Source: Deltaproteobacteria bacterium (GTDB lineage Bacteria > Desulfobacterota > Desulfobacteria > Desulfobacterales > SpSt-501). From it: a stretch of 51,503 nucleotides of DNA. Within the stretch, counting starts at the first letter, position 1. Every line of letters begins with the position of its first letter. This document shows, in pieces, positions 5,528 to 23,222 of the stretch. The stretch covers positions 1 through 51,503 of the forward strand of contig JACRCN010000034.1 of assembly GCA_016219005.1 (NCBI GenBank). The letters are read 5' to 3'. The notes under the pieces were generated by a model that did not search any database, was not told where the DNA came from, and saw only the letters and a list, made by a program, of their open reading frames with translations. The position numbers were made by a program, and so were the translations under genes.

Positions 5528-5711
5528 TTGCACTCCAAACTAATATTTGACGATAGAAGAATCTACGCGCAGCAAGAGAGGGGCCGACCCGCATGGCGGC
5601 AAGCTACCTGCCGGCGGCAACCTCGATCGCGGCACCCCGCGGCACTTCGCATACCTGATCGCGGTAGATGCCTGAAAAGCTCATCCTGAAAATCCGCTCG
5701 CAGGGTCGAGC

Positions 5712-7551: not shown

Positions 7552-7575
7552 TTATCTTCCCCCTGGTGAAATGTC

Positions 7576-7603
7576 GGCCCCCGGGCTCCCAACCCCGGGG
7601 GCC
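7576..7603 (-). promoter_or_regulatory. Intercistronic hairpin between dctP and dctQ
   Basis: GGCCCCCGGG pairs perfectly with CCCGGGGGCC around an eight-base loop, in the 64-base gap between dctP and dctQ. Hairpins placed like this typically protect the upstream mRNA and reduce read-through, so that the binding protein is made in excess over the membrane subunits. That role is inferred from position. Confidence 0.65.
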
Positions 7604-7615
7604 CATATTCGGATT

Positions 7616-8791
7616 TTACTCGAACCGTTTACCCTTCATGAAATCTTCATAGGGCCAGGGAGAGACGCCGGATTTCATCTCGCGCCATGGGGCGATATCG
7701 ACAAGAAATTTCTCCTGGGACTCCAGGATTTTTTTAACCTCCGGATATTTTGTCTTGAGTCCGTCCAGGTAGACCTTGGTCACCTTCCGGAATTCAAAAA
7801 TTGAGCCATCGTCCATCTTGGTGAAGATCGCACCATCTTTTTTCAGTAATTCAATGGCCTCTATGTTCATATATTGACATAGGGTGTTGTACCATTGGTT
7901 GGTTTCGGCGGCGCAGATTTCAACGATCGCCTTGAGATCATCCGGCAACTTGCTCCAGCTGTTCTTGTTGATGATGAGATCCAGCTGGCTGGTGGGTTGG
8001 TGAACGCCCGGGGACAGGATGTACTTGCCGACTTCATGAAACCCCATGGGGTATGTGATAGCCGGGCAAGAGAACTCCGCCGCGTCGATGACGCCACGTT
8101 CCAGACCCAGGTAGACTTCGGGACCGGGCAAGGGAACAACCGATACGCCGGCTTCGGTCAGAATATCCATGTACCAACCGACCGTGCGGACCTTCATGCC
8201 TTTGTAATCAGCCATCGATTCGGCCTTCTTCTTTGAAAACAAACCCAGTTCCTGGCCGCCGTTGCCCATGAAAAAGGGCACCAGGTTGAACTGGCTGTAG
8301 AGGTCTTCCATCATTTTTTTACCCTCGCCCTGGTAGTACCAGACCGAAAGCGACTCGGTGTCCATGCCGTAAGGAATCGACGCAAAGAGGTTGAAGGCCT
8401 CACTCTTGCCTTTCCAATAACCGGGGAAGGTGTGGCCGGCGTCTAATGTGCCTTTGGACACCGCATCAAAAATCTCGTTGGCGCCGACGATGGCTCCTGT
8501 GGGAAAGGGAGTAATGTTCAGGCGCCCGCCGGAAGCGGCTCTGACGCTGTCGCAGAAGTGCAGAACGGCGGCGCGGTTAAGAATGCCGCCCCAGCAGTCG
8601 CTCATACGCCAGTTTATTTTCGAAGTGGATGTGGTCCATTCCTTTTTCCCCCACTGCTTGTGGCGAGCATCCACCTGTTCTACATCGTACTTTTTGGTTT
8701 TGCCGGCCGCTGCTGCATATGGCGGAGCGGTTACAGTGACCAAAGAGATGGCGATCAGGAAAACAACGCAACGGTACAGGCATTTTCTCAT
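7616..8791 (-). CDS. dctP: TRAP transporter periplasmic solute-binding protein, DctP
   Basis: This 391-residue exported protein has a signal peptide at residues 1-28 (MRKCLYRC, hydrophobic core, then PYAAAA). It belongs to the DctP family, in the branch usually named mannitol/chloroaromatic or 2-oxoacid (TakP-like) binding proteins. Marks are NEIFDAVSKGTLDAGHTFPGYW (in part), YKGMKVRTVGWYMDILTEAG, and ITYPMGFHEVGKYILSPGVHQP. The conserved Arg of MKVR normally binds the ligand carboxylate. I chose the ATG at 8789-8791 because AAGGAGGAG lies a few bases upstream; a longer frame starting at a TTG would hide the signal peptide. It is the first gene of the TRAP set and probably captures a hydroxy- or oxo-acid. 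Confidence 0.92.
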   Translation of the reverse strand: MRKCLYRCVVFLIAISLVTVTAPPYAAAAGKTKKYDVEQVDARHKQWGKKEWTTSTSKINWRMSDCWGGILNRAAVLHFCDSVRAASGGRLNITPFPTGAIVGANEIFDAVSKGTLDAGHTFPGYWKGKSEAFNLFASIPYGMDTESLSVWYYQGEGKKMMEDLYSQFNLVPFFMGNGGQELGLFSKKKAESMADYKGMKVRTVGWYMDILTEAGVSVVPLPGPEVYLGLERGVIDAAEFSCPAITYPMGFHEVGKYILSPGVHQPTSQLDLIINKNSWSKLPDDLKAIVEICAAETNQWYNTLCQYMNIEAIELLKKDGAIFTKMDDGSIFEFRKVTKVYLDGLKTKYPEVKKILESQEKFLVDIAPWREMKSGVSPWPYEDFMKGKRFE

Positions 8792-8917
8792 ATTCTCCTC
8801 CTTGGAATGGTTTGTAGCCGTTCCGGCAGAATACTGCCGCGGCCGGGGTGGGATAACCAAAAGTCAAAAGAATGCTCCATGATGTGTGCGTTGATACCTG
8901 CCGTAACGGTTGCCGAA

Positions 8918-10183
8918 TTAATTATGAAGGTTCCGGGCGCAGACCACACCGATGCCGGCCTTGATCAGGGCCTCGGCGGTCAGTGTCACCGATCGGTGCT
9001 TCTCCATATAGTTCCGCTCCAGGGCCGGCATGAGCCCACTTGTCTCTGCGTCGGATTTGGCCAGAAAGTAATCCAGGATGTCGGACGGATGGGTTAGTTT
9101 CTGCTCGATCTCCGGCTCCCCGCCTTCGTGTTTGGCTGAGATGTTGGGGACCCTCTTGGCGATCTCGACCAACTCGGCCCGGCGGTTGTAGGGCTGGCGT
9201 ACGATGGACTTCCATGTCTCGGTGATGTGGTGCTCGAAGCGCACGACGTCCTCCAGGCCCAGAGACCTGCGGATTTCGGAGGCCTGACGGATGGTCTCGT
9301 TGTTGACCGAATTGGAGAGGTTGAATCCGATGAGCGAGGTCCGGCCGTCCGCCCGGGAGAAAAGCCGCGCTGTCAGCAACGTCCAGAGGATGGCGAACGG
9401 GTTGTCGTTACCCATGAACACCGAGATCTTGAACTCGTTGTCCACCCCCAGCTTGTGAAGCAGATAACCCACCAAAACAGTGCCCGGGTTGATGTTGAGA
9501 ACTTGTCGAACCCCGTACGTGGTGTGGTATTTCAGGTATTCGTCCACCCAGCGGATGGGGTAGTGGTTCGGCTGGCCGATCCCCCCGAAGTAGCCCGTGA
9601 TGGTCTCGGGGCCGCCCAAGTGGACGTTGGAGCCGTCCGTGCCCTTGGTGTCGAGGGTTTCCACGTAGGAGGCGCCGATGATCCGCATGGCCGCGGCCAC
9701 GGCCATGAGATCGCCGTTATCGGCCTCCTGCTCGACCATATGGCGCACCCGGATGACCCGGCCCGGCATAAGTTCTCCATGCTCGATGCAGCGTTTTGCC
9801 TGGGTGATCAGCCAGGGGAAATACTGCAATGCGCTGATCTCGAGGGTCACCGCGTTTTTTTGGTTGAGGGAAGCCGCATCGCCCTTGCCGCCGGTGACCC
9901 GCTTGACGTAGTCCTTCATGGAGATGAAGGCGCGCTTGTCCCGCTGTTCGATCAGCCAAGCGAGGTCCTTCACGTAGGGGGACTGGGCGGCCTGGAGCCG
10001 CGCCATGAGGTTTTCGAGCTTTCCGGCGTCTGCATGTTTGCGGTTGATTTCCGCCACTCCGCCGTATTTATGGATGACCTCAAGGAGCTGGTTGATGATC
10101 TCATTGCCCGGATCGAGCAGGAAAGCGTTGATTGCTTCTATCGGCTTGGAATCGATTTTTAGTTTTTCGCGCAGATCGCTCAT
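8918..10183 (-). CDS. Unrecognised 421-residue cytosolic protein
   Basis: I do not recognise this family. It has no signal peptide or membrane segment. Conserved-looking, Gly/Asn-rich stretches that suggest an enzyme active site are LDTKGTDGSNVHLGGPETI (about residues 182-200), GYFGGIGQPNHYPIRWVDE (about 202-220), VFMGNDNPFAILW (about 257-269) and LIGFNLSNSVNNETI (about 285-299). EHHITETWKS and EIAKRVPN follow. Alternating helix/strand character would fit an alpha/beta barrel, but this is a guess. I chose ATG at 10181-10183, seven bases after GGAGGG. It lies between panB and dctP, 55 bases after panB, so it is probably cotranscribed with both and takes part in the same catabolic route. Homologues should be sought next to other panB/TRAP clusters. 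Confidence 0.8.
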   Translation of the reverse strand: MSDLREKLKIDSKPIEAINAFLLDPGNEIINQLLEVIHKYGGVAEINRKHADAGKLENLMARLQAAQSPYVKDLAWLIEQRDKRAFISMKDYVKRVTGGKGDAASLNQKNAVTLEISALQYFPWLITQAKRCIEHGELMPGRVIRVRHMVEQEADNGDLMAVAAAMRIIGASYVETLDTKGTDGSNVHLGGPETITGYFGGIGQPNHYPIRWVDEYLKYHTTYGVRQVLNINPGTVLVGYLLHKLGVDNEFKISVFMGNDNPFAILWTLLTARLFSRADGRTSLIGFNLSNSVNNETIRQASEIRRSLGLEDVVRFEHHITETWKSIVRQPYNRRAELVEIAKRVPNISAKHEGGEPEIEQKLTHPSDILDYFLAKSDAETSGLMPALERNYMEKHRSVTLTAEALIKAGIGVVCARNLHN

Positions 10184-10238
10184 AGGGTTTCCCTCCAATA
10201 TTTTATAGGAAGTTCATGACGGGACTAAACGCAAAGGC

Positions 10239-11096
10239 CTATTGAAACTTTTTAAGCATCTCAACAAATGACTCTTCCTGACCTTTGATGATGTGGTAGC
10301 AATGCTCATCCTCCGGAAACCTCTTTTCCTTTACCTCGCGGATATAAGTTTTAAATGCTTCGATATACACTTCGGCCACGTTACAGTACTTTTTGACGAA
10401 CTTGGGGGTAAATGCCTGAAACTGTCCTACCATGTCGGAGACGATCAAAAGCTGGCCGTCTGTGTCGGGACCGGCGCCAATGCCGTATACAGGAATCGAC
10501 AGCTTTTTAGTGATATACGAAGACAGCTCAGGTGGCACGGCCTCCAGCAGCAACAACTGGGCGCCGGCCTCCTGGATGGCCAAGGCGTCGCGGATTACCA
10601 ATTCGGCGGATTCGGCGGTTCGCCCCTGGGCCTTGTGGCCGCCGAGCTGTCCGGAACTCTGAGGTGTGAGGCCGATGTGGCCGGAGACCACAATGCCGGC
10701 ATCGACAATCGCCCTAATTCGGGAGGCGGTTCGCAGGCCGCCTTCCAACTTGATGGCGTCCACGCTGGCCGCTTTCAAAAAGCGTCCGGCGTTGGCAACT
10801 GCGACCTGGTCGGATTCCTGGTAGCTCATGAAAGGCATGTCACCGATGACAAATGCCGTGGGAGCTCCACGCCGAACGGCTTCGCAATGGACGATACACT
10901 GGTCCATTGTCACCGGAACAGTGCTCGAGTACCCGTAGACGCACATCCCCATGGAGTCGCCTACCAGGATCATTTCGATGCCCGCGGCTTCCTGGAACTG
11001 TGCCGTAGGGTAATCGTAGCACGTCAGCCAGGACACCTTTTCACCCTCGGCTTTTTTGCTGTAAAGATCGTGGATCGAAACTTTTTTTCGTGCCAT
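10239..11096 (-). CDS. panB: 3-methyl-2-oxobutanoate hydroxymethyltransferase (ketopantoate hydroxymethyltransferase)
   Basis: This 285-residue enzyme of the PanB family catalyses the reversible transfer of a hydroxymethyl group between methylene-tetrahydrofolate and 2-oxoisovalerate, giving ketopantoate. All active-site segments known from Escherichia coli PanB are present: VGDSMG (D47, S48), GDMPFMSY (D86, a metal ligand), KLEGG (K116, E118), GHIGLTPQS, LLEAVPPE (the catalytic Glu) and GIGAGPDTDGQ. Length is normal. The ATG follows TAGGAGG. No panC or panD is nearby. Instead the gene lies between GlcF and a transporter-linked unknown gene, in a catabolic setting, so it may work in the reverse direction to remove a hydroxymethyl group (inference). 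A biosynthetic copy elsewhere cannot be excluded. Confidence 0.93.
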   Translation of the reverse strand: MARKKVSIHDLYSKKAEGEKVSWLTCYDYPTAQFQEAAGIEMILVGDSMGMCVYGYSSTVPVTMDQCIVHCEAVRRGAPTAFVIGDMPFMSYQESDQVAVANAGRFLKAASVDAIKLEGGLRTASRIRAIVDAGIVVSGHIGLTPQSSGQLGGHKAQGRTAESAELVIRDALAIQEAGAQLLLLEAVPPELSSYITKKLSIPVYGIGAGPDTDGQLLIVSDMVGQFQAFTPKFVKKYCNVAEVYIEAFKTYIREVKEKRFPEDEHCYHIIKGQEESFVEMLKKFQ

Positions 11097-11195
11097 TTTT
11101 TCCTCCTACTGATCGAATTGATGATTTAGGTTGATTGCCATGACCCGAGCAACAATATCGCAATTAAAGATTGCGCTTGATGACTTAGCGAGTCG

Positions 11196-12449
11196 TTATT
11201 GATCTTTCCGCAATAGTCGCGCCACAACTTGTATCGGGTGAACGACTCGAATCTCATCAGCGGCTTCCAAATTTGCCGACAAATTCAAATTGCATCCCGG
11301 GCACCCAGTTGCCCAAAAAGACGCCCCGGTTGCCTTGGCGTTTCTTATTTTTTCGCCGGCGATGGCTTTGGTGATATCCGGATGCTCCAAGCAGAAACTT
11401 CCCCCAGCGCCGCAACAGCTTTCCGAATCCTTGCTTGGCACGTACTTAACGCCGGGCAATCTGCTCAGCATTTGTTCAACGATTCCCTTAATCCCTTGTG
11501 CGTTTCGGAGATGGCAGGGGCTGTGATAGGTAACGGTTTCAGGTTGCTCCGGAGTATTAATCAAATAGGGTGCGATAAGGTCGAAGTGCTGGTAGACGAA
11601 CTCCGATATGTCAAATACCTTGCGAGCCAATGACTCGGCGGCCCGTGTCGCATGGCCCAACTCTCCGAGGGCCTGTTTGTACTCTTTCCGGAGAGCAGAC
11701 CCGCAGGTGGCGCAGTCCACGATGATTGCCGTGCTGTCCGGATCCCCCAGGACACGGATGTTGGTCAATATGTTCTCACGGGCTTTTTCCAGCGCGCCGT
11801 GCATGATCAGCGGTAACGCACAACAAACCTGATCCTTGGGCACAACTACCCTGAACCCCATGGTCGTAAGAACTTGCACGACGGCCCAGCCGATCGAGCC
11901 GAAGGTCAGGTTGGTCGCACAACCAACGAAATACACGATCGTCCCTTTTACAGCCCCTTCCGGATTAATAACGGGCGGCATCTGCGCCCTAAAAGGCTCT
12001 CGATTCATGTGGGGAGTATTTTTCAGTTTGATCGTACCGATCATCAGGTCGGCCGCTAATTTTTCAAAAATGACATTTCGCCCGAAGCGGGCGATCCTGG
12101 CGGATAGCAAAAGTTGCTGCTCATGGGTTAGTAAATGAAATAGCAGGCGCATGGTCCACGAATGGCCGAACTGATCTCCCAGGAGTGAGCGCAGGCGCAT
12201 GAAGAGAGGTCCATGGAGAACCCCGGCCGGGCAGGCCGCCGTACAATTGCCGCAATTGATGCACATTGAAAAGACTTCCATTAACTGCGGTGACTGCGCC
12301 AGTCTTCCTTCGGCCACTAACCGCGCCAATTGCACTTTTGATCTGGGACTAACCGTCTCATCGAATTCCTGCCGGTAAACCGGACAGGTCGTTAAGCACA
12401 GTCCGCATCTGCCGCAGTTATAGGCCTCATTTGCATTCAGCATGGGCAT
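11196..12449 (-). CDS. glcF: Glycolate oxidase-type iron-sulfur subunit, GlcF
   Basis: This 417-residue subunit carries electrons from a GlcD-type flavoprotein to the respiratory chain or to an electron-transfer partner. Two N-terminal [4Fe-4S] ferredoxin motifs are visible: CGRCGLCLTTCP (C12, C15, C18, C22) and CINCGNCTAACPAG (about residues 61-74). Two CCG domains follow, with YFVGCATN, CCALPL, the CATCG segment, YHSPCHLRN and SCCGAGGSF. I start it at ATG 12447-12449, seven bases after the glcD stop; a frame beginning at a TTG inside glcD is longer. Together with glcD it should oxidise a 2-hydroxyacid to the 2-oxoacid. There is no glcE. Confidence 0.9.
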   Translation of the reverse strand: MPMLNANEAYNCGRCGLCLTTCPVYRQEFDETVSPRSKVQLARLVAEGRLAQSPQLMEVFSMCINCGNCTAACPAGVLHGPLFMRLRSLLGDQFGHSWTMRLLFHLLTHEQQLLLSARIARFGRNVIFEKLAADLMIGTIKLKNTPHMNREPFRAQMPPVINPEGAVKGTIVYFVGCATNLTFGSIGWAVVQVLTTMGFRVVVPKDQVCCALPLIMHGALEKARENILTNIRVLGDPDSTAIIVDCATCGSALRKEYKQALGELGHATRAAESLARKVFDISEFVYQHFDLIAPYLINTPEQPETVTYHSPCHLRNAQGIKGIVEQMLSRLPGVKYVPSKDSESCCGAGGSFCLEHPDITKAIAGEKIRNAKATGASFWATGCPGCNLNLSANLEAADEIRVVHPIQVVARLLRKDQ

Positions 12450-12456
12450 ACATTTT

Positions 12457-13830
12457 CTACGCAAATTTCCCCGGGTTTAAAATGTTGCACGGGTCGATTG
12501 CCTTCTTGATAATCGACAGAAATTCTCTGCTGTCGGTGTCCATCCCCATCGGTAAAAAGGGGGATTTGGCTAGGCCGATCCCATGTTCGCCGGACAGGCA
12601 CCCGCCTAAGTCTATGGCCAGCTGAAAAATTTCTTTGATGGCTTCCTCAACCCGATGAGCTTCGCTTTTATCCCGCGTGTCGGTATTGATGCAGGGATGC
12701 AGGTTGCCATCCCCGGCATGGCCTAAAATGGAAAGCGTTATGCTATGCTTGTGCGCGATTCCTCTGCACCCCCTGATCATGGCCGGAATTTTACTGACGG
12801 GTACGGTCGCATCTTCGACAATGGTTGTCGGCGATAATCGATTTAAAACACCATAGACAGACCGACGGCCCTTCCATAGCGCGTCACTCTCCGCAGACGT
12901 ATTGGCAACCTTGATTTCCTTCGCGTTGTTGGCCCTGGCAAATTCCACTATTTGCGCCAACTCCTTGTCTACGGATTCTTCGGCACCATCGACATCGACC
13001 AGAAGAATGCCTTCGACATCTCTGGGCAGACCGATCTGCATGGCATCCTCAATCAAATTGATGACCGTGTTGTCCATCAGTTCCATGGCCGCTGGTATGA
13101 TCCCGACACCGATGACTGAAACCACCGTTTTGGCCGTATCATCGAGATCCGCGTAACAGATCATCGCCGTCCGTCTGGCTTTCGGCATTGGAACAATCTT
13201 AAGCGTGGCCTCCGTGACGATTCCCAAAGTCCCTTCTGAGCCGCAAAACAACCCGGCCGGGCGGTACCCCGTGACATCTTTGACGTTCCTGCTTCCGAGG
13301 CGGATGATTTTACCTGAGGAAAGCACAACCTCTAAGCCCAGAATGTAGTCATGGGTCACGCCATATTTCAGGCAACGCGGACCGCCGGCATCTTCGGCGA
13401 TGTTTCCCCCTATGGTGGATACCGAATAACTACTGGGATCTGGGGGGAAAAAGAAATTCAGCGGACTCAGCGCCTGCTGCAGATCCGCATTGACGACCCC
13501 CGGCTCGACAATGGCGTACCGATCGGCGGGGGCAATTTCAACGATTTTATTCATCTGCGTCAAGCATAGAACCAAGCCGCCCTTTAGGGGGATGGACCCC
13601 CCGCTAAGGTTGGTCCCGGCACCTCGAGCGGTAACCGGGACCCTATCCATGGAAGCAATCTCCATTATTTTCGAGACCTCTTCCGTTTTCGTCGGGAAGA
13701 CGACGGCATCGGGCACCCCTTCGACGACATATCCATCGAAGGAATGTGCCGATCGAGAGATCGCGTCGGTTTTGATACGACCGGGGTCCAACACCTTGCG
13801 CAGCTTTGATAGTGTCTTATTTGAAATCAT
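12457..13830 (-). CDS. glcD: FAD-linked 2-hydroxyacid dehydrogenase, GlcD-type
   Basis: This 457-residue flavoprotein of the GlcD/D-lactate dehydrogenase family (vanillyl-alcohol-oxidase fold) oxidises a 2-hydroxyacid, usually the D isomer, to the 2-oxoacid. The N-terminal FAD-binding domain shows TARGAGTNLSGGSIP (about residues 67-81) and PDPSSYSVSTIGGNIAEDAGG (in part, about 130-150). The C-terminal domain shows ILGHAGDGNLHP, GGCLSGEHGIG with the conserved His, and the terminal DPCNILNPGK. It precedes glcF by seven bases. It is the first gene after a 712-base gap that holds a good promoter with an overlapping palindrome. Its substrate is unknown; pantoate is proposed from the panB neighbour. 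Confidence 0.92.
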   Translation of the reverse strand: MISNKTLSKLRKVLDPGRIKTDAISRSAHSFDGYVVEGVPDAVVFPTKTEEVSKIMEIASMDRVPVTARGAGTNLSGGSIPLKGGLVLCLTQMNKIVEIAPADRYAIVEPGVVNADLQQALSPLNFFFPPDPSSYSVSTIGGNIAEDAGGPRCLKYGVTHDYILGLEVVLSSGKIIRLGSRNVKDVTGYRPAGLFCGSEGTLGIVTEATLKIVPMPKARRTAMICYADLDDTAKTVVSVIGVGIIPAAMELMDNTVINLIEDAMQIGLPRDVEGILLVDVDGAEESVDKELAQIVEFARANNAKEIKVANTSAESDALWKGRRSVYGVLNRLSPTTIVEDATVPVSKIPAMIRGCRGIAHKHSITLSILGHAGDGNLHPCINTDTRDKSEAHRVEEAIKEIFQLAIDLGGCLSGEHGIGLAKSPFLPMGMDTDSREFLSIIKKAIDPCNILNPGKFA

Positions 13831-14542: not shown

Positions 14543-15988
14543 CTATTGCGGAATACCGGCCAATTTCTTGGCCAATCGTATCTTTTCCCCCAGCTTCCCC
14601 TCCCGGAAGATCATGATGCGCTGTGCCTGCGGCGAGCCGGCGCCGTGCATCGACTCCACCATGGCGGTACCGCCCGTCAAGGCTTCGATCAGTCGTCCGA
14701 TCTTGATGCGATCCTCAACCGGAATGGTGGAAACTCCAACAAAATACTTCTTGACCAGATGCCCGACATCTTCGCTCTTCAAATCGTACTCGCTGGGCAT
14801 GGTGGCCAGGAATCCCCCGGCAATGTCGGTAGCCAACCGCGCCACTTCGAAGTGAAACCGGGTCACGTTCTGCTTGCAGACGTTGGCCAGCATCGTGTCC
14901 ACCAGGTATGCTCCCGAGGGCGTGGGGTTGCCCTCCGCCGAGCAGGCAATGGATGAGCTGTAGAGGGTTTCGCTCAGGTGGATCATCTCCGTTACCTTGT
15001 CTTTGATGTGAGAGCCCTGGGCCGTTCCCTGGATCTGCGCCAGGTAGGATACCGCACCGGTCAGCACATCCATCAAGCCTGTTTTACAGGCGCCATAGTT
15101 GGCGCGGTGATGGGCGGCAAACCGGTAGACCAAGGTGCCGGTGTGATCGGTTTCCCCGTTCATGAAAATCCGCTCGTTGGGCACAAACACATCCTCGAAA
15201 GCAATGACGGCCTCCCCGCCGACAACCCCAAAGCGCGGTTTGCCCACATCGATCCGCTCCCGATGGTCCCGGCGGTCGTCGCCGGCTTGACGTCCGAAAA
15301 TCAGGGTCACCCCGGGAGTATCGATCGGCATGGCGCAAACGATGGCATAGTTCTTCGACCGCTCGTCGAGAGCGGTGGTGGGCATCACCAGAATGTCGTG
15401 CGAGTTGACGGCACCCGTCATGTGCAGCTTGGCTCCGCGGATCACCACCCCATCCTTGCGGCGCTCCACCACGTGTACGTATTGGTCCGGATCCGGCTGA
15501 TCCGCAGGGCTCTTGGAGCGATCGCCTTTCGGGTCCGTCATGGCTCCCACCACCATCCGGTTCTCATCCTGGATATGAATCAGCCACGCTTTGAAACGCT
15601 CTAAATAGCCGGTCCCGTGTTTTTGGTCGATCTCATAGGCAACCGAGTAAACGGCATTGATACCGTCAAGCCCAACGCAGCGCTGAAAGCACGTACCGGT
15701 CTTCTGGCCCAGCAGACGCAGCAGTTTGATTTTTCCTATCAGATCCCCGATGTTCTGATGCACATGGGTAAAACGGCTGATGGTGCGGCCCGTCAAATGC
15801 GATGCTGCGGTGGCCAGGTCCTTGTACTTTTCCTTGTTGGCCAGCGCATAGGTCATGGCCGCTGACCGCACGTGTGGCGCGGTAGCCGGATGGCGCGTGA
15901 CATCCTTGATCCGTTTCCCCTTGTAGTAGATTTTTGGCGACAATCTCCGCAGGCTTTCGATGTATTCTGCGCCATTCGCAAGCTTCAT
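14543..15988 (-). CDS. 4-hydroxybutyryl-CoA dehydratase-like enzyme (HpaB/AbfD family)
   Basis: This 481-residue enzyme belongs to the superfamily of 4-hydroxyphenylacetate 3-monooxygenase (HpaB) and 4-hydroxybutyryl-CoA dehydratase (AbfD). The iron-sulfur ligands that define the dehydratase are all present: C100 and C104 in TCFQRC, and H294 and C301 in HRANYGAC. The catalytic Tyr and Lys are also there (Y298, K302). These match the Clostridium aminobutyricum residues C99, C103, H292, Y296, C299 and K300. The C-terminal MHGAGSPQAQRIMI is typical. It should therefore be a FAD/[4Fe-4S] radical dehydratase, or a vinylacetyl-CoA-type isomerase, acting on an acyl-CoA, and not an oxygenase. The exact acyl-CoA is unknown. 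The ATG follows GGGAGGA. An SDR gene lies upstream on the same strand. Confidence 0.85.
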   Translation of the reverse strand: MKLANGAEYIESLRRLSPKIYYKGKRIKDVTRHPATAPHVRSAAMTYALANKEKYKDLATAASHLTGRTISRFTHVHQNIGDLIGKIKLLRLLGQKTGTCFQRCVGLDGINAVYSVAYEIDQKHGTGYLERFKAWLIHIQDENRMVVGAMTDPKGDRSKSPADQPDPDQYVHVVERRKDGVVIRGAKLHMTGAVNSHDILVMPTTALDERSKNYAIVCAMPIDTPGVTLIFGRQAGDDRRDHRERIDVGKPRFGVVGGEAVIAFEDVFVPNERIFMNGETDHTGTLVYRFAAHHRANYGACKTGLMDVLTGAVSYLAQIQGTAQGSHIKDKVTEMIHLSETLYSSSIACSAEGNPTPSGAYLVDTMLANVCKQNVTRFHFEVARLATDIAGGFLATMPSEYDLKSEDVGHLVKKYFVGVSTIPVEDRIKIGRLIEALTGGTAMVESMHGAGSPQAQRIMIFREGKLGEKIRLAKKLAGIPQ

Positions 15989-16104: not shown

Positions 16105-16863
16105 CTACCAGGCCATCCAACCACCGTCCACGGGAAGAACAACACCATGAACGAAGTCCGCCGCAGCCGATGCCAGAAAAACCACCGCACCGGCCAAATC
16201 CTCAGGTGCCCCCCAGCGGCCAGCAGGTATACGGGCCGTAATCGACTTGGACCGCACCGGGTCTTTCTGAAGTGATTCGGTGAGTTCGGTGGCGAAAAAG
16301 CCTGGCGCCAGGGCATTCACATTGATCCCGTGTTTAGCCCAATCGTTGGCAAGGGCCTTGGTCAGTCCGGCGATCCCATGCTTGGCAACCGAATAAGCCG
16401 CAACATTCAATCCGCCCTGAAAGGCAATCACCGAAGCGACGTTGATGATCTTGCCCCGGCCGTTCTTCAACATGATCCTGCCGGCCGCCTGAGAAAGAAC
16501 GAACGCCGCATTCACGTCTATCTCCAGGGTAGCGTCCCAGTCATCCTCGGTGTAATCCTGGGCCGATGCCCGGCGGATGATGCCGGCGTTGTTGACCAGG
16601 ATGTTGACATCGCCCAATTTTTCGGCCACTGCCGGAATCACTTCCCGGGTCTGATTCCTCCGGGTCAAATCGGCCGCAACGTGACAATATCGTCTCCCCA
16701 GCCCACCTATTTCTCTTTCCAGTTCCAGATTGTTGCCGCGGCTGACAACGGCGATATCCGCACCGGCTTCCGCCAAGGCCAGTGCGATAGCCCTGCCGAG
16801 ACCCTTTGACCCGCCGGTGACGACTGCCACTTGATTTTGCAAGCTAAATTTTTGGAGTATCAA
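16105..16863 (-). CDS. Short-chain dehydrogenase/reductase (SDR family)
   Basis: This 252-residue classical SDR shows TGGSKGLG (about residues 16-23) for NAD(P) binding, NNAGI (about 91-95), a catalytic Ser in NVASVIAF and the YxxxK motif in YSVAKHG (about residues 155-161). The C-terminal VLPVDGGWMAW is typical of gluconate/KduD-like and FabG-like members. It should oxidise or reduce a hydroxy/keto group on a sugar acid, hydroxyacid or acyl-CoA. No ATG is available before the Rossmann motif, so I accept the TTG start at 16863, which is preceded at normal distance by GGGAG. It sits between the oxidoreductase genes and the dehydratase gene. Confidence 0.88.
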   Translation of the reverse strand: MILQKFSLQNQVAVVTGGSKGLGRAIALALAEAGADIAVVSRGNNLELEREIGGLGRRYCHVAADLTRRNQTREVIPAVAEKLGDVNILVNNAGIIRRASAQDYTEDDWDATLEIDVNAAFVLSQAAGRIMLKNGRGKIINVASVIAFQGGLNVAAYSVAKHGIAGLTKALANDWAKHGINVNALAPGFFATELTESLQKDPVRSKSITARIPAGRWGAPEDLAGAVVFLASAAADFVHGVVLPVDGGWMAW

Positions 16864-17083: not shown

Positions 17084-17983
17084 CTAGGCCATGAGCTTGT
17101 ATTTTTCGATGTTCCTATCTGCCTGTTCTTGTACGGCCATCAAGCTTCCCCTGGACGCTTCCTTCACCACTAAATGCTGAAAGCGTTTCTGTTGTTTCAG
17201 ATATTCGATGACCGGAACTTTCACCCGCAACTTCTTCACTTTGCTGATTTTTCCATCCAACATCTCAAACAGAGGCACCAGCCCTGAGTTCACGCCAAGC
17301 CTGCCCATCTCCAAGGTTAAATGGGAGGGAAAATTCCAAACGGAAGGGCATGGGGTATCGATCTGAATGTAACGCGGCCCGTGCAGCGTCATCGCTTTCT
17401 TCACTTTCTGCTTGAGATCTCCCAGGTATGCGACGGACGCGGTAGCCACGTAAGGCACGCCATGTGCCGCCACGATTTCCGGCAGATCCTTCTTCCTCTC
17501 CGTTTTCCCCAACGACGTTTTTCCGGCTGGATGGGTTGTTGTGGCGGCACAGAAGGGGGTCGCGCCGCTGCGCTGGCCTCCCGTGTTCATATAGGCACCG
17601 TTATCAGCGCAGATGTAGAGAACGTCGTCCCCGCGTTCGAGCATTCCTGAAAGAGATCCGAAGCCGATGTCAAAGGTTGCCCCGTCACCGCCGATGGCCA
17701 CCACCCGGGTGCTTTCACGGTGTTGCGCCCTAAGTGCTGCTGCCACACCGCTTGCGATCGCGGGAGCGTTTTCGAAGACGTGATGAATCCATGGCACTCG
17801 CCAGGGGGAAAATCCATATGGGGATGAAAAAGTTTCCAGGCATCCGGTCGGGGAAACCACAATCACATTGCTCCCGGTCGCTTCCAATATATGGCGTACC
17901 GCCAGGGCGAGGCCGCAGCCATGACAGGCTCTGTGCCCGGAGACAAACAGTGATTCCGTTTTTCCGGTTGGTTTTTTGGGCAT
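17084..17983 (-). CDS. 2-oxoacid:ferredoxin oxidoreductase, beta (TPP-binding) subunit
   Basis: This 299-residue subunit binds thiamine diphosphate. It shows HRACHGCGLAL (about residues 18-28), with Cys residues that hold an iron-sulfur cluster in this family, and the TPP motif running from GGDGATFDIGFGSL (about 98-111) to ADNGAYMNTGGQ (about 126-137). With alpha, gamma and delta subunits encoded directly upstream, it forms the four-subunit enzyme that converts a 2-oxoacid plus CoA to acyl-CoA, CO2 and reduced ferredoxin. Pyruvate (POR) and branched-chain 2-oxoacid (VOR) enzymes cannot be told apart by eye. I chose ATG at 17981-17983 after AAAGGAG; a longer frame would overlap the alpha gene. 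Confidence 0.92.
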   Translation of the reverse strand: MPKKPTGKTESLFVSGHRACHGCGLALAVRHILEATGSNVIVVSPTGCLETFSSPYGFSPWRVPWIHHVFENAPAIASGVAAALRAQHRESTRVVAIGGDGATFDIGFGSLSGMLERGDDVLYICADNGAYMNTGGQRSGATPFCAATTTHPAGKTSLGKTERKKDLPEIVAAHGVPYVATASVAYLGDLKQKVKKAMTLHGPRYIQIDTPCPSVWNFPSHLTLEMGRLGVNSGLVPLFEMLDGKISKVKKLRVKVPVIEYLKQQKRFQHLVVKEASRGSLMAVQEQADRNIEKYKLMA

Positions 17984-18000
17984 GTTGAGTCTTTCTCCTT

Positions 18001-19191
18001 TCAGGGGACGATGGCTGGGTTCAGATCCAACCATTCTGCTTCTGGAGGCGGTAGGCCCGAAGAGGAGAGCCTTTCTGCACGGTCGACAATTTCCCGAACT
18101 GCGGTCGAATTCACTTCACGACCACCCAGGCCGGCAATAAAATCGATGACCATCGGCACACCGGGTCTTCCAATCAATTTCGACTTGACATCCAAACCAA
18201 CGGCGCCTTCGCTCCCCATGGACACGTTGGCATCAAGAACCGCGACGACCTTCGCCCCACGCACCGCTGCCACTAAATCCTCATAGGGAAACGGTCGGTA
18301 ACAACGGATTCTGATCAGCCCCACCTTTTTCCCTTCCCGGCGCATATCATCCACCGCATCCTTGATCGTCCCGGCCATCGAACCCATCGCGACCAGGACG
18401 ACCTCCGCATCGCCGGTGCGATAGGCCTCCACTAGCCCGCCGTAGTCGCGACCTGTAAGGGCGGTCAATTCGGCCATTATTTTTCGGATGCAGGATTTTC
18501 CTTCGGTCATTGCCTTGTGGATAGAGTACTTGAACTCCATCAAGACATCCTCTTCGGCATATGACCCCCAGGTTTTAGGATTGGCGGTGTCCAAATAGTT
18601 TTCCGGCTTGAACGGAGGCAGAAAGCGGTCCACGGCTTCTTGGTCCAAAAATTCCACACGCTCGTATGAGTGGGTGAGGACCCACCCGTCCATGCAAACC
18701 ATAACCGGCAACATGATGGAGGGGTCTTCGGCAATTTTAAACGCCGCCAAGTGCATGTCATAGGCTTCTTGGGCGCTTTCTACGTAAAGCTGGATGACGC
18801 CCGAATCCCTCAGGGAGATGGTGTCCTGGTGGTCGACCTGGATATTGATCGGTGCGGAGATGGAGCGGTTGACCCCTGTGATGACAAACGGCAGACGCAT
18901 CCCGGCACTGGCATAAAGCACCTCTGTCATCAGCAGGAGCCCTTGGGAGGCTGATGCCGTATAACTGCGACTGCCTGCCGTGGAAGCACCCGAGACTACG
19001 CTCGCCGCCGAGAATTCAGATTCCACACGAACATACTCTGCATTCAGGTCGCCGTCGGCCACCATGCGCGCCAGAGTTTCGACGATATGCGTCTGGGGGC
19101 TGATGGGATATGCGGCTATCACGTGAGGTCGACATGCTTTCACGGCCAGCGCGACAGCTTCGGAGCCTTCTACCACCCGGATGTCCGCCAT
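18001..19191 (-). CDS. 2-oxoacid:ferredoxin oxidoreductase, alpha subunit
   Basis: This 396-residue alpha subunit carries the pyrimidine-binding and transketolase C-terminal-like domains. Marks are AAYPISPQTHIVE (about residues 26-38), VRVESEFSAASVVSGAS (about 54-70), SQGLLLMTEVLY (about 80-91), GVNRSISAPINI and DHQDTISLRDSG (about 103-130), and later VLDANVSMGSEG (about 322-333). I start it at ATG 19189-19191, after AGGAG, directly behind the delta gene. Order and spacing (G-D-A-B, with overlaps or very short gaps) show one operon. Substrate is not readable; a branched 2-oxoacid would fit the panB and glcD neighbours. Confidence 0.92.
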   Translation of the reverse strand: MADIRVVEGSEAVALAVKACRPHVIAAYPISPQTHIVETLARMVADGDLNAEYVRVESEFSAASVVSGASTAGSRSYTASASQGLLLMTEVLYASAGMRLPFVITGVNRSISAPINIQVDHQDTISLRDSGVIQLYVESAQEAYDMHLAAFKIAEDPSIMLPVMVCMDGWVLTHSYERVEFLDQEAVDRFLPPFKPENYLDTANPKTWGSYAEEDVLMEFKYSIHKAMTEGKSCIRKIMAELTALTGRDYGGLVEAYRTGDAEVVLVAMGSMAGTIKDAVDDMRREGKKVGLIRIRCYRPFPYEDLVAAVRGAKVVAVLDANVSMGSEGAVGLDVKSKLIGRPGVPMVIDFIAGLGGREVNSTAVREIVDRAERLSSSGLPPPEAEWLDLNPAIVP

Positions 19192-19193
19192 GA

Positions 19194-19451
19194 TTACTTC
19201 TCCTCGTTTTTCATGCGAATAGCCTCCGCCGTACATTCATAGGCGCATATTCCGCAGCCCTTGCAGAAATTGTAGTCGATTTCGTAACGATCCCGCACCT
19301 GTCGCACGGCATCGTCGGGGCAAACTTCCTGGCAGATTCCACATTGCTTGCAGCTTTCCGGGTCTATTTCCGGCCTCTGGTCACGCCAATTGCCCGTCTT
19401 GTAATTGAGCGACGTTCCGCCTTCGACCACCGCTCCTGATGAGATCTTCAT
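19194..19451 (-). CDS. 2-oxoacid:ferredoxin oxidoreductase, delta (2[4Fe-4S] ferredoxin) subunit
   Basis: This 85-residue ferredoxin-type subunit has two classical cluster motifs: CKQCGICQEVCP (about residues 34-45) and CKGCGICAYEC (about 63-73). It relays electrons from the TPP site to external ferredoxin. The start overlaps the end of the gamma gene by four bases, and the stop lies two bases before the alpha start. ATG at 19449-19451 follows GGAGGAG; a second ATG lies four bases upstream in another frame. Confidence 0.93.
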   Translation of the reverse strand: MKISSGAVVEGGTSLNYKTGNWRDQRPEIDPESCKQCGICQEVCPDDAVRQVRDRYEIDYNFCKGCGICAYECTAEAIRMKNEEK

Positions 19452-19999
19452 GCATGCTCCTCCGGGAATGCCCGATAGCTTTCTTCGACCACTCGAGCGT
19501 TTTTCAGGCCAACATCGCCCAAAAATTTGCTTTGAACGGCTCTAACAGAAGCCTGCAGCGAAAGCGCTCCACTCACGCATGCAAAAGTTCCGAGAAGCGC
19601 CGTATTAATGATTGGGCGGCCAAGAATTCGACGGGCGAGCTGTTCTGCCGATATCGCAACTACGTTTTGGCTTTTCAGCTTCAAATCCCCGACGCTTCTT
19701 TCGGTGTTGATGAGCACCATTCCATCAGGCTTTAGGCCTTCTTCTACATCAACCTCTGCCAAGATGGTGGCATCTTGAACGATCACATAATCGGGCGCAT
19801 ATATGCGGCTGCGAATCCGGATTGGACGATCACTGAGCCGACAGAAAGCTACGATAGGTTTCCCGCGCCGCTCACCGCCGCCGCCCAGATATGGGAATGC
19901 CTGTCCAAATTTACCGTCCTCCAGAGCCGCTATGGCCATGAACTGCGCCAGCACCAGAGACCCCTGCCCACCTCTGCCGTGTATACGGATTTCTTTCAT
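19448..19999 (-). CDS. 2-oxoacid:ferredoxin oxidoreductase, gamma subunit
   Basis: This 183-residue CoA-binding gamma subunit opens with the family signature HGRGGQGSLVLAQFMA (residues 7-22), followed by FPYLGGGGERRGKPIVAFCRLS and the C-terminal NTALLGTFACVSG. Length is normal. GAAGGGG lies before the ATG. It is the first of the four subunit genes and follows the 20083-20862 SDR gene by 83 bases on the same strand, so the SDR and the oxidoreductase may be one transcript. Confidence 0.92.
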   Translation of the reverse strand: MKEIRIHGRGGQGSLVLAQFMAIAALEDGKFGQAFPYLGGGGERRGKPIVAFCRLSDRPIRIRSRIYAPDYVIVQDATILAEVDVEEGLKPDGMVLINTERSVGDLKLKSQNVVAISAEQLARRILGRPIINTALLGTFACVSGALSLQASVRAVQSKFLGDVGLKNARVVEESYRAFPEEHA

Positions 20000-20082: not shown

Positions 20083-20862
20083 TTAAGAAATTGAATGCCC
20101 ACCGTCGACGTAGATCTCCGCTCCAGTTAAAAAAGCCGGGCATGTGGCCAGATAAAGTGCAGTGGATCGCAGTTCTTCAAGGTCGCCTACCCGATCGATC
20201 GGGATCATCTTTTTAACAAGGTTCTTGCCGGCATCCGAGTCGAAAAAGCCGCGGTTAAACTCGGTTAGAAAATAGCCCGGGCAGAGCACGTTCACTTGAA
20301 TGTTATCCCGGATCAATTCAAGTGCCATTACCTTGGTTAACTGCGTCACAGCCGCTTTACTAGCGCAATAGCCAGACATGTCGCGCGCCGCGAGTTTCCC
20401 AAGTACAGAGGAAATATTAATGATTTTTCCGCATTTCCGGATTGACATGTGCTTTGCTACAGCGCGTGAGGCTGCGAAAACGCCGCGAAAATCCACAGCC
20501 ATGACTTCATCGATGTCCTCATCGGTCATTTTTAGCACAGGCTTCTGGCTGCCGGAGATTCCCGCGCTGTTCACCAAAATGTCTACCTTACCCAGTTCGT
20601 CGACGATCTCCTGAACAATTCGGTTCACTTCGTGCGTTTTGTTGACATCCATCGCTTTCCAAAGCGTTTTCACTCCAAATTTTTCCCTGATTTCCATGGC
20701 GGCGCGTTGGCAGCCCTCCAGAGATCTGGCAACTATCGCCACATCGGCTCCGGCTTCAGCATATGTGTCGGCAAACAACCGCCCTATTCCCTTGTAGCCT
20801 CCGGTGATCAAGGCGGTCTTGCCTTTCAACGAAAAGAGATTTATGAGCAGGTTGCCGCTCAT
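20083..20862 (-). CDS. Short-chain dehydrogenase/reductase (SDR family)
   Basis: This 259-residue classical SDR has ITGGYKGIG (about residues 19-27), NSAGISG (about 94-100; Ser replaces the usual second Asn of NNAG), NISSVLGK with the catalytic Ser, and YCASK (about 164-168) for YxxxK. The ending AEIYVDGGHSIS is typical of the family. It probably acts on a hydroxyacid or hydroxyacyl-CoA. It lies between the TetR-SDR fusion gene and the oxidoreductase operon and shares the relatively AT-rich composition of that stretch. AAAGG precedes the ATG. Confidence 0.88.
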   Translation of the reverse strand: MSGNLLINLFSLKGKTALITGGYKGIGRLFADTYAEAGADVAIVARSLEGCQRAAMEIREKFGVKTLWKAMDVNKTHEVNRIVQEIVDELGKVDILVNSAGISGSQKPVLKMTDEDIDEVMAVDFRGVFAASRAVAKHMSIRKCGKIINISSVLGKLAARDMSGYCASKAAVTQLTKVMALELIRDNIQVNVLCPGYFLTEFNRGFFDSDAGKNLVKKMIPIDRVGDLEELRSTALYLATCPAFLTGAEIYVDGGHSIS

Positions 20863-20933: not shown

Positions 20934-22325
20934 TTACGCCATACCCCCATTCGTGCATAAGGTCTGACCTGTTAAATATTTTGCCGAAGCGCCTAGCAAA
21001 AAGAAAATAGCCTCGACCACATCGCGGATTTCTCCCAGAGCACCCGTTGGGATATTTGCTTGAACCTTTGTGCCGTATTTTTTCTGAAGACCCGATGGGC
21101 GCGCAGTTTTCAGAAATCCCGGGACTACACAATTCACCGTCAGACCCAACGGAGCCATCTGCAGGGCCAACGATTTTGTCAATGCGATTGCGCTTCCTTT
21201 TACGGTTACGTAAGAAATCGGGTCTTCATATTGGTCCCACGCCCAGGGAGCAATGTATACAATGCGAGACGGCAGGCCGCTCTTTGTATTAGATTTAAGG
21301 TGGCCAGCGATTTCCTCGGCCGCCCTTAAATTTGAGTGAATATTCTTACCGCTCCCGATGGTTTGCGACTCTCGAACCTCGAGCGCACCGATTCCCAGAT
21401 CGTGAATATAAAGGTCGATGTGCCCAATGTCTTTTTCTATCTGTTTAAGCAAAAGGGGATTCATTGGGCCGTAATGGCTATTCGAATAGAACCGAAGCCG
21501 ATCCGAGTTGCGGCTGCACGCCACCGGATTCTCCCGTCTCGCGATTTCCGACATGGAGTAGACGGCCAGTCGCACTCCCGCTTTCAGCAAAGACCGGCAT
21601 AAAGCGGTTCCGATCGGAGTTCCGGAGTTGACGAGAAGGGCGACCTGGCCTTGCAGGCCAAAAGGCGCTTCAACATCCGGTCGACAATCGGTCACATGGC
21701 TGTTTTCCGGGGATGGGTGCTTTGAACTGAGGCCATTGAAAATTAATCCAAGAATCGATCGCTCTGCTTCTAAGCTATCAGCGAAACCCCGCAGGTCCCA
21801 ACGCTTGATAATCCAAGAATCAATCATTGACTTTATGAGGTTCGCCGTCAGCCTGACGTTGCACGCTGACAACTGGCGGGCCTTTATACCTTCCTCAATT
21901 GCCTGTTCAATCAAATTGAGATGTTCTCGTTCCTTGGAGAGCAGCTTGTGGAGGTAGGGTTTCGAGAGGATGTGGCTTTCTTGGTAAAGCAGCAGGATGG
22001 AATCGGAGAGGCGGTCCATCAAATTGAACTCAGCCCGAATGATGCGGCGAAGCTTTTCAATCGGGCTGGACACATTTCGGATACTGGATTGCAGCGCCAC
22101 CATCGCGCTGCTGGCGGCATAATCATGAATGAGTGAAAATATATCTTCTTTTGAACCGATGTAGTCGTATATATTCCCGTAACTCAGACCCGCTTCATTT
22201 GCCAATTCGGCAATCGTGGTCTTGTGAAAGCCTTTCTCGGAAAACAGCCTGGTGGCCGCCAGTACAATCTGTTCACGGCGCTTTTGCACCAGTTGCCGGT
22301 TCTTGACGGTCGTAGGAATCTTCAT
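20934..22325 (-). CDS. TetR-type regulator fused to a degenerate SDR domain
   Basis: This 463-residue protein joins two families. Residues about 16-63 are a TetR DNA-binding domain (RREQIVLAATRLFSEKGF, TIAELANEAGLSYGNIYDYI, SKEDIF), followed by a helical TetR-like core to about 200. From about 221 a complete SDR-like domain follows: GLQGQVALLVNSGTPIG at the Rossmann position, LGIG where NNAG is expected, YVTVK (about 370-374) keeping YxxxK, and the tail TGQTLCTNGGMA. The catalytic Ser position reads Ala (in YIAPWAW), and the glycine-rich loop is altered, so catalysis is doubtful while nucleotide or acyl binding remains possible. No stop or frame change separates the halves. I use the ATG at 22323-22325; a GTG lies one codon before. 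It probably controls the neighbouring catabolic genes (inference). Confidence 0.85.
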   Translation of the reverse strand: MKIPTTVKNRQLVQKRREQIVLAATRLFSEKGFHKTTIAELANEAGLSYGNIYDYIGSKEDIFSLIHDYAASSAMVALQSSIRNVSSPIEKLRRIIRAEFNLMDRLSDSILLLYQESHILSKPYLHKLLSKEREHLNLIEQAIEEGIKARQLSACNVRLTANLIKSMIDSWIIKRWDLRGFADSLEAERSILGLIFNGLSSKHPSPENSHVTDCRPDVEAPFGLQGQVALLVNSGTPIGTALCRSLLKAGVRLAVYSMSEIARRENPVACSRNSDRLRFYSNSHYGPMNPLLLKQIEKDIGHIDLYIHDLGIGALEVRESQTIGSGKNIHSNLRAAEEIAGHLKSNTKSGLPSRIVYIAPWAWDQYEDPISYVTVKGSAIALTKSLALQMAPLGLTVNCVVPGFLKTARPSGLQKKYGTKVQANIPTGALGEIRDVVEAIFFLLGASAKYLTGQTLCTNGGMA

Positions 22326-22332
22326 CACAACA

Positions 22333-22410
22333 TCCGATTGATGGATCGAATTCCGATTACCTGATCACCATATTGCCCTCCCACTATTACGATGTCAAGA
22401 ACAAATCGGA
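22333..22410 (-). promoter_or_regulatory. Promoter of the TetR-SDR gene with three TCCGATT half-sites
   Basis: On the minus strand TTGACA (22398-22393) and CAATAT (22375-22370) are separated by 17 bases. TCCGATT half-sites lie at 22333-22339 and 22352-22358, and the inverted copy AATCGGA at 22404-22410. The outer pair reads GAATTCCGATT and AATCGGATTC and brackets the promoter. This layout suggests autoregulation by the adjacent TetR-type protein. Both promoter and operator calls are from inspection only. Confidence 0.45.
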
Positions 22411-22475: not shown

Positions 22476-23222
22476 TTAAAATTTCTTTGAGGCCTCGCCG
22501 AGAATGTTCTGTACCGGAGCCGAGAACCAACAATCCATGAATGCCTGATTGATGGATTCCCTGCCAGCAAGAAACCGCGTGCGGATATCCCGTGTGCGGT
22601 GCTGTTTGGTGAGCGGGAACCCAAATGGGGGGCGTTCGACCATTTCGGAGATCTTGGCGATCGCCTTGACCTCCACATCCTCTTCAGGGAACAAACCGTC
22701 GACCAGAGCGAGGGCTCGTGCTTTTTCGGGTGCCAGCAATTCGCCCGCATATTCGATTTCGGTCGCCGTTCGGTCCCCCACGGCTTGGCGCAGCATCAGG
22801 TCAGCTAAAAAAGGAACCGGCAGGCCGATTTTAATTTCGTTCAATCCCATTAGCTTCTTACCAGAGGCGATTAGACGAAAATCGCACGCCAACGCCAGGA
22901 TGGTTCCCGCCGCCGGAGCGTGCCCGGCGATCGCGGCGGCGGTGGGTATGGGGAGGGTGTAGAGCGCCAACACCGCGTCCTCAAACATGGCCCAGAAGGC
23001 GGCCATGTCTTTGCGGTTCAGCTTCAGGAGGGTAGGCAAATCAAGCCCGATGCTGAAAAATTTGTTCCCCCCGGCAAGCACCATGCCCCTGAAGCGGCCC
23101 CGCGCCTCCTGCAGTGCAAGCGGCAGTTCCGCAACCACCTCCGGGCTGATGGCATTGGTGACACCGTTGGCCAGGCGCACGATGGCCACATTCCCGTGAT
23201 CTTCAAGAGCAAGCTTCGTCAT
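22476..23222 (-). CDS. Enoyl-CoA hydratase/isomerase family protein
   Basis: This 248-residue crotonase-fold protein is closest in appearance to delta3-delta2-enoyl-CoA isomerases. The two oxyanion-hole segments are visible: GGNKFFSIGLDLPTLL (about residues 51-66) and AIAGHAPAAGTILALACDFRL (in part, about 98-117). The usual catalytic Glu of hydratases is not obvious; NEIKIGLPVPF occupies that area, which fits an isomerase-type member. It would shift or hydrate a double bond in an acyl-CoA made in the neighbouring pathway, for example by the dehydratase at 14543-15988. It is higher in GC than the genes on its left, so it may lie outside the low-GC block. Confidence 0.85.
   Translation of the reverse strand: MTKLALEDHGNVAIVRLANGVTNAISPEVVAELPLALQEARGRFRGMVLAGGNKFFSIGLDLPTLLKLNRKDMAAFWAMFEDAVLALYTLPIPTAAAIAGHAPAAGTILALACDFRLIASGKKLMGLNEIKIGLPVPFLADLMLRQAVGDRTATEIEYAGELLAPEKARALALVDGLFPEEDVEVKAIAKISEMVERPPFGFPLTKQHRTRDIRTRFLAGRESINQAFMDCWFSAPVQNILGEASKKF

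Follow-up and report, generated by a model that had tools for sequence, protein, structure and literature searches.

A conserved TetR-type regulator fused to a degenerate short-chain dehydrogenase, and its possible role as a sensor of coenzyme A thioesters

Results

A single gene for a TetR regulator and a short-chain dehydrogenase domain

The stretch of DNA analysed here (hereafter the window) comprises positions 1 to 51,503 of contig JACRCN010000034.1, from the Deltaproteobacteria bacterium assembly GCA_016219005.1 (Desulfobacterales), and carries on its minus strand a gene (20934-22328) whose 464-amino-acid product joins a TetR-type regulator to a short-chain dehydrogenase (SDR) domain. The gene was delimited by its open frame and Pfam domains. 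This 464-codon frame has no internal stop, and its possible start codons are GTG at 22328 and then ATG at 22325, the boundary used in the original prediction, which had described a one-frame fusion from the DNA letters and their translations. The TetR_N helix-turn-helix (HTH) domain occupies residues 21-64 (22137-22268; E 1.6e-13) and the TetR_C_24 helical core residues 87-171 (21816-22070; E 5e-10). They are followed by a linker (residues 206-223; 21660-21713), with a mean pairwise identity of 13% among the fused proteins described below, and by the SDR half (residues 224-464; 20937-21659), in which adh_short_C2 matched residues 239-463 over 8-235 of its 236 model positions (E 6.6e-23). All three Pfam matches were above the gathering score. 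The protein matched TetR and SDR families only, and no GntR or aminotransferase model. Its DNA-binding half and its core make it a member of the TetR family, and the NCBIfam FadR equivalog NF053878 was not reached (64.3 bits against a cut-off of 200). The closest solved relatives of the TetR core were 3dcf, 1vi0/3whb, and 3vpr, followed by KstR2.

Database searches yielded 20 further full-length fused homologues in 16 other genomes, 41-51% identical over nearly the whole length, which lifts the fusion far above a chance occurrence. A search of the order of genome G706 added G778, with one more full-length fused gene, and G776, with a fragment at a contig edge. Apart from the window copy, the total is thus 21 full-length fused genes from 17 genomes, all with the junction at the same position. 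The outcomes that would have overturned the original prediction, a stop, a frameshift, or an assembly join between the two halves, are excluded by these homologues, and only a negligible probability remains that separate TetR and SDR genes were joined in error. A domain search for the TetR plus SDR architecture, which had been suggested as a check, found TetR_N, TetR_C_24, and adh_short_C2 in all 16 members of the alignment used (A3). Across the family, TetR residues 1-64 showed a mean pairwise identity of 75%, and the motif KRWDLR (residues 175-180), which follows the TetR_C_24 core, was present in 21/21 aligned members and reads KRWDQR in the later-found member L097.

The searches, in which the four best candidates per genome were scored, detected full-length fused genes in 13 of 389 genomes of the order and in 6 of 395 genomes of the phylum, the genome of the window and G100 being counted in both; a class-level search gave 13/389 again, as in the order search. 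The distribution is patchy, since among the 40 nearest relatives no genome but the window's own was found to have one; six of the remaining 39 belong to the same genus. A scan of genome contigs with peptides of the window protein alone gave one SDR and one TetR, both distant, and so carries little weight on the spread of the family, and the 66 pattern matches in viral contigs included no relative. Among the best 40 of 2220 matched plasmid records, nearly all matched the SDR side, and one, H2, covered 88% of the query. A Phocaeicola plasmid match covering 97% of the query was rejected as a fusion, as it consists of a TetR gene and a FabG gene that share a frame but are separated by three stops. 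This arrangement of a TetR gene and then an in-frame FabG gene (L061, 5995-7362, from a Phocaeicola massiliensis plasmid) is not closely related to the fused family; it could represent the kind of layout from which such a fusion arises.

The SDR half has lost its catalytic signatures and gained new invariant residues

To describe the SDR half, residue counts were taken from an alignment of 21 fused members and compared with 12 SDRs from the window and neighbouring loci, excluding a cut-off SDR of locus L072. In all 12 comparison SDRs the catalytic Ser, Tyr, and Lys and the three glycines of the nucleotide-binding loop are kept. In the window protein this loop reads VNSGTPIG instead of TGxxxGxG (altered part N234 S G T237; 21618-21629). 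The first Gly is Asn in 20/21 fused members, the second has been replaced throughout (by Val, Ile, Leu, Met, or Pro in 20 and by Ala in 1), and the third is kept in 18/21. The NNAG motif has become HDxG, in the window copy HDLGIG (309-314; 21387-21404), with D310, at the position of the second Asn, and G312 in 21/21 members and H309 in 19/21. The catalytic Ser is replaced by Pro (Pro361 in the window copy) in all 21, within the loop PWAWD (361-365; 21234-21248), of which P361, W362, W364, and D365 are invariant. Invariant as well are V398, N399, C400, P403, G404, R410, and P411 in the stretch VNC..PG......RP (398-411; 21096-21137). The original prediction had listed an altered glycine loop, NNAG motif, and catalytic Ser beside a retained YxxxK, and this is correct for the window protein, which has Y373xxxK377 (21198-21212). 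As a family feature the retention does not hold: the Tyr is Phe in 13/21 members, the Lys is lost in 6/21, and only 6/21, including the window copy, have both.

Altogether, 19 positions of the SDR half are invariant in 21/21 members, and 13 of these lie within residues 310-312, 361-365, and 398-411. Judging from the alignment and from the general architecture of SDRs, we take these stretches to follow or form beta4, beta5, and beta6, at the rim of the cofactor and substrate cleft. Eight of the residues (D310, P361, W362, W364, D365, C400, R410, and P411) are absent from all 12 comparison SDRs.

Four close pairs, which share members, indicated purifying selection, with a ratio of nonsynonymous to synonymous substitution rates (omega) of 0.09-0.37 in the SDR half versus 0.06-0.12 in the TetR half. 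The value of 0.37 was found in the orthologues L036/L037 and likewise in the tandem paralogues L030/L050. The latter differ at 2 of 64 HTH residues and at 65 of 241 SDR residues, which would suit two sensors acting on one operator; this is weak support, because the orthologues L030/L031 show the same tendency (1/64 and 35/241). A structural model of the SDR half, for which the input alignment included complete or partial sequences of three intact SDRs, superimposed on FabG structures with a Z score of 22.2 and a root-mean-square deviation of 3.1 Å over 232 residues. The fused half has the fold of the classical SDRs and lacks their TGxxxGxG, NNAG, and Ser-Tyr-Lys signatures, and on this comparison we regard it as a conserved, maintained pseudoenzyme.

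A tandem double box next to a candidate promoter precedes most fused genes

A motif search in the upstream regions of these genes found a candidate operator, in the window TGATCAGGTAATCGGAATTCGATCCATCAATCGGAT (22332-22367, minus strand), which is a tandem double box with a 20-base period and the consensus TGA.tagtCa.TCaGA.TctGAttaatCa.TC.gAa. It is flanked by a candidate -10 hexamer, CAATAT (22370-22375), whose position next to the box is conserved, and by an exact TTGACA as candidate -35 (22393-22398). The region 22333-22410, which had been proposed for DNA-binding assays, does therefore hold a candidate binding site, with the double box at 22332-22367 and the promoter at 22370-22398. In a leave-one-out scan the window box scored 27.8 bits, above 200/200 shuffles, and 18 of 21 upstream regions had a box above all 200 shuffles; the null here, mononucleotide shuffling, is a mild one. 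The leave-one-out model was built on 17 regions, including a false site of L072, and later scans used 16 sites without L072. The regions L063b and L069 lay outside the training set and are near copies of trained sites, and hence are no independent test.

The three regions without a double box directly upstream of the fused gene were L062a, L063a, and L072. Of these, L062a and L063a are the first copies of tandem pairs, the second copies of which carry the box directly upstream. In L072 a double box (2021-2056) accompanies a TTGACA promoter of the genes that come next, which encode an enoyl-CoA (coenzyme A) hydratase-like protein and a CoA ligase. The fused gene L097, which was held out of the model, is preceded by a double box of 26.9 bits with TTGACA upstream. 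With the 16-site model, nothing else above 12 bits except overlaps was found in the window and 19 neighbourhoods (383,141 bases), and the best score in loci without a fused gene (171,802 bases) was 11.6 bits. The only neighbourhood without a double box was L080, which is also the one without an SDR; there, a different palindrome-like stretch (AAACGAACGTCCGTTTT) adjoins a TTGACA promoter. In its own genome, the window box was the sole match to a pattern drawn from it when up to 3 mismatches were allowed.

The double box is nearly symmetric, scoring above 12 bits on both strands in all 19 stretches holding it, and as computed the candidate site is a palindromic operator near a promoter, the arrangement expected of the TetR family. 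An exact TTGACA occurs within 50 bases upstream of the box in 16/18 loci versus 54/3600 shuffles, and in most loci a -10-like hexamer, picked as the best over three spacings, stands just before the box. Box and promoter together have what appears to be the layout of a repressor site, and from this arrangement the fused gene would be the first gene of an operon.

The fused genes neighbour probable pathways for CoA thioesters

Downstream of the fused gene, on the same strand, lie an intact SDR gene (20083-20862; Pfam and alignment) and genes whose domain matches indicate the gamma (19448-19999; POR), alpha (18001-19236; POR_N, PFOR_II), and beta (17084-18034; TPP_enzyme_C) subunits of a 2-oxoacid:ferredoxin oxidoreductase, with a ferredoxin-like subunit in between (19194-19451) that was recognised from two CxxCxxCxxxC clusters in its sequence. 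These are followed by a second intact SDR gene (16105-16863; domain match and alignment) and a gene of the HpaB family (14543-15988) for a protein of the 4-hydroxybutyryl-CoA dehydratase type. A co-directional gene of the enoyl-CoA hydratase/isomerase family (22476-23222) lies upstream of the operator. The best solved relative of the HpaB-family protein was 1u8v (E 6.5e-157), which we take to be 4-hydroxybutyryl-CoA dehydratase, and residues C99, C103, H292, and C299, presumably its iron-sulfur (FeS) cluster ligands, align with identical residues. These four positions are all kept in 18 of 20 gathered HpaB-family sequences, the exceptions being L066_1801, without the three Cys, and L073, which is cut short. 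The former (L066, 1801-3234) has V, E, and Y at the three Cys positions, and the same neighbourhood has a copy with all three. Two HpaB-family subgroups accompany the regulator, one with CFQRCVG (the window and L076-L078) and one with CIQRCMG (most others). Judged by homology, the substrate of the window enzyme could be a related 4-hydroxyacyl-CoA.

Other fused-gene loci have a similar content. An HpaB-family gene was found near the fused gene in 17/19 stretches, mostly one or two genes downstream and in the same direction, a CoA ligase gene (AMP-binding) in 14/19 loci, and an intact SDR gene of one cluster in 12/19. Organic-acid uptake genes occur in many of these loci. The arrangement seen most often runs from the fused gene through an HpaB-family gene, DctQ, DctM, a universal stress protein, SDR, and CoA ligase to DctP; in other loci the CoA ligase comes first and genes of a branched-chain-type ATP-binding cassette (ABC) transporter are present. 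In L079 (2749-4413; the G396 neighbourhood) the CoA ligase gene lies in two open frames, as a broken gene or a sequence error, and L074 is odd in having permeases that resemble sugar transporters. No member of the CoA ligase cluster was found within 8001-36000 of the window, where the 2-oxoacid:ferredoxin oxidoreductase, which forms acyl-CoA from a 2-oxoacid, may take its place. Judging from this gene content, the formation and use of CoA thioesters appears to be common to most loci. Together with the candidate operator, the neighbourhood makes it likely that the fused protein regulates the surrounding pathway, as had been predicted.

Further downstream in the window, a co-directional block (3576-13830, minus strand) holds genes for a GlcD-like flavin adenine dinucleotide (FAD) oxidase (below the curated cut-off), a FeS/CCG protein, PanB, a tripartite ATP-independent periplasmic (TRAP) transporter, a PhnR-like regulator, and a nickel-pincer-cofactor isomerase. 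This block could point to a 2-hydroxyacid substrate.

Descent of the fused family

Phylogenetic trees, which omit L047 (internal stop) and L061 (no match), placed the TetR halves on one side of a branch with support of 88/98 versus 31 stand-alone TetRs, and the fused SDR halves on one side of a branch with support of 100/100 versus 18 other SDRs. The subclades mostly agree between the two halves (L054-L056; L040 and L053; L030-L032, L049, and L050; L033-L037). The protein L038 (locus L070) differs: its TetR half joins the L030 group and its SDR half joins L033-L037 and L057 (locus L079), both with high support, and a possible explanation of this placement is an exchange of SDR halves between family members. 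One fusion event fits the trees, perhaps with such a later exchange. A TetR gene in L080 (1491-2129) encodes a stand-alone sister with the motif KRWDLKG, 39-47% identical to the fused TetR halves; no SDR match was found on its 8.6-kb contig, which suggests that the SDR was added onto a pre-existing TetR. This gene adjoins TRAP transporter genes. Fused genes also occur as tandem pairs, in L062 (8068-11334) and L063 (8353-11513), and the genome of L062 holds a further fused copy elsewhere (L073).

The intact SDR gene at 20083-20862 had been named as a possible source of the fused domain. This can be ruled out: its product is only 22% identical to the fused SDR half (19.4 bits), several SDRs of the same genome score better (up to 63 bits), and it falls on the opposite side of the 100/100 branch. 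Based on fold and homology, the fused SDR half is best explained as a descendant of a FabG-kind SDR enzyme.

Discussion

Taken together, we propose that the fused protein is a one-component repressor. Its TetR half would block transcription of the protein's own operon by binding the tandem double operator over the operon start. The operon would serve the catabolism of organic acids as CoA thioesters, beginning with uptake, after which a CoA ligase, or in the window the 2-oxoacid:ferredoxin oxidoreductase, would make the thioester, which would then undergo dehydration by the 4-hydroxybutyryl-CoA-dehydratase-type enzyme and dehydrogenation by an SDR. The SDR half of the regulator would have lost catalysis and canonical NAD(P)H binding and have kept a re-tooled pocket. 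When a CoA thioester of the pathway accumulates, it would bind in this pocket, possibly together with the TetR core, and release the repressor from the DNA. We put the probability of this whole proposal, a repressor of its own operon in which a dead SDR reads a pathway CoA thioester, at about 0.47. The DNA side is well supported by the computational results; we infer repression, the class of ligand, and the SDR pocket as the sensing site. The SDR half is probably a built-in sensor of the pathway under control, because the fused family adjoins related clusters for the breakdown of small organic acids, and we favour its pocket over the TetR core as the ligand site, because the pocket rim has been rebuilt with invariant residues.

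A number of observations weigh against this proposal. The drug-efflux repressor AcrR is also among the ten solved TetR relatives, and the TetR core is better conserved in the family than the SDR half (60% versus 43.5%). Six of the invariant SDR-half positions lie outside the pocket-side stretches (G302, A337, G432, D436, F443, and T453), and V398, N399, G312, P403, and G404, invariant as they are, are ordinary SDR residues. The structural models are of limited quality: the SDR-half model was moderate (predicted local distance difference test score, pLDDT, 62; predicted template modelling score, pTM, 0.68), and a full-length prediction from a five-row alignment was poor (pLDDT 46, pTM 0.32). 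On the DNA side, the -10 hexamer of the window is weak, with 3 of 6 consensus bases, and a generic promoter scan misses this promoter. Several loci have co-directional genes just upstream of the operator, such as the enoyl-CoA hydratase family gene of the window at a distance of 147 bases, and no HpaB-family gene was found within 11 kb in L072 and L074. The discordant halves of L038 and the existence of the stand-alone TetR sister in L080 belong on this side as well.

The TetR core could be the only sensor. In that case it would bind the CoA thioester by itself, as in FadR and KstR2, and the SDR half would act as an oligomerisation scaffold, joining two TetR dimers that occupy the double box. 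This alternative is serious, because the core is the better conserved half, and 3whb, a regulator of fatty acid metabolism, and KstR2 are among the solved relatives of this TetR_C_24 core. It would also agree with the tandem double box, with the sister in L080 that has no SDR, with the usual tetrameric state of SDRs, and with the invariant G432, D436, F443, and T453 in the C-terminal part, which forms subunit contacts in SDRs. However, 13 of the 19 invariant SDR-half positions lie in the pocket-side stretches, where a pure scaffold would need no new invariant Trp, Asp, and Arg, and we consider it unlikely, if by some distance the strongest competitor, that the SDR half is a scaffold only.

Sensing of NAD(P)H, or of the NADH/NAD+ ratio, so that the operon follows the redox state, had been put forward in the original prediction and would be in keeping with the SDR fold, with FabG as nearest solved structures, and with the third loop Gly (18/21) and the catalytic Asn (19/21) that most members keep. 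It has become less likely, since the nucleotide-loop glycines and the acidic residue of the adenine site are lost throughout the family: the first Gly is mostly Asn, the second is absent from every member, NNAG is HDxG, and the acidic residue, Asp in 7 and Glu in 5 of the 12 comparison SDRs, is missing from 21/21 members, in a stretch that is poorly aligned. Regapping the alignment could bring back the first Gly, but not the second. We regard redox sensing as improbable, and sensing of an acyl-CoA or hydroxyacyl-CoA, the other ligand class suggested, would be the better guess. It is just as improbable that the SDR half has kept an enzymatic activity of altered chemistry, which would make the protein a bifunctional regulator and enzyme like PutA or BirA. 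D310, W362, D365, and R410 (21/21) and H309 (19/21) could be catalytic, and the window copy and L097 retain Tyr and Lys; yet the Ser is gone from all 21 members, the Tyr and Lys differ from member to member, and 12/19 loci have an intact SDR gene close by.

The proposed sensor has a precedent of a kind in BbsC (7pcs), an SDR subunit that is reportedly inactive, from the BbsCD enzyme of anaerobic toluene degradation. As in the fused family, a dead SDR would there be kept in an anaerobic CoA-thioester pathway, but as an enzyme subunit and not in a regulator. By sequence, the fused SDR is closer to FabG (78 bits) than to BbsC (52.2 bits). From FabG-type classical SDR enzymes, with which it shares the fold and full-length homology, it differs by the loss of the catalytic Ser, the loop glycines, and NNAG.

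Among regulators, the closest parallel in design is MocR/GabR, in which a DNA-binding domain is linked to an enzyme-derived domain; GabR is described as acting on the genes of gamma-aminobutyric acid (GABA) degradation upon binding pyridoxal 5'-phosphate (PLP) and GABA (PMC6917764). The fused TetR-SDR protein seems to work in a similar manner, yet it is not a member of that group, because both halves differ: MocR/GabR have a GntR-type HTH and a PLP aminotransferase fold, and the protein described here has a TetR and an SDR domain. Moreover, GabR activates, whereas the layout of the fused gene looks like that of a repressor. With FadR of Bacillus and with KstR2, for which PMC13176608 names CoA derivatives as ligands, the fused protein shares the TetR_N and TetR_C_24 core and boxes beside a promoter. 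Unlike these, it adds an SDR domain of 240 residues and a tandem double box with a 20-base period.

Among the papers listed in searches of the open full-text literature, none had a TetR-SDR fusion in its title or abstract opening, and no listed title concerned a regulator of 4-hydroxybutyryl-CoA-dehydratase-type pathways; subscription papers and protein databases lie outside this scope, and such architectures may be recorded there. We tentatively suggest, at somewhat less than even odds, that the fused proteins form a separate class of bacterial transcription factors, which arose by one fusion event, in which a dead SDR senses CoA thioesters on behalf of a TetR repressor of radical dehydratase pathways, and whose tandem paralogues share operator specificity while their sensors diverge. 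A shared operator with diverging sensors might make a single promoter responsive to two metabolites.

Only a few enzyme folds, such as that of the aminotransferases in MocR, are known to have been turned into sensors of regulators, and a conserved TetR-SDR family would extend this list by one of the most common. The predicted operator, the surrounding genes, and a small set of pocket residues make the question of the ligand directly testable, and the family would provide a candidate regulator for 4-hydroxybutyryl-CoA-dehydratase-type pathways in anaerobes.

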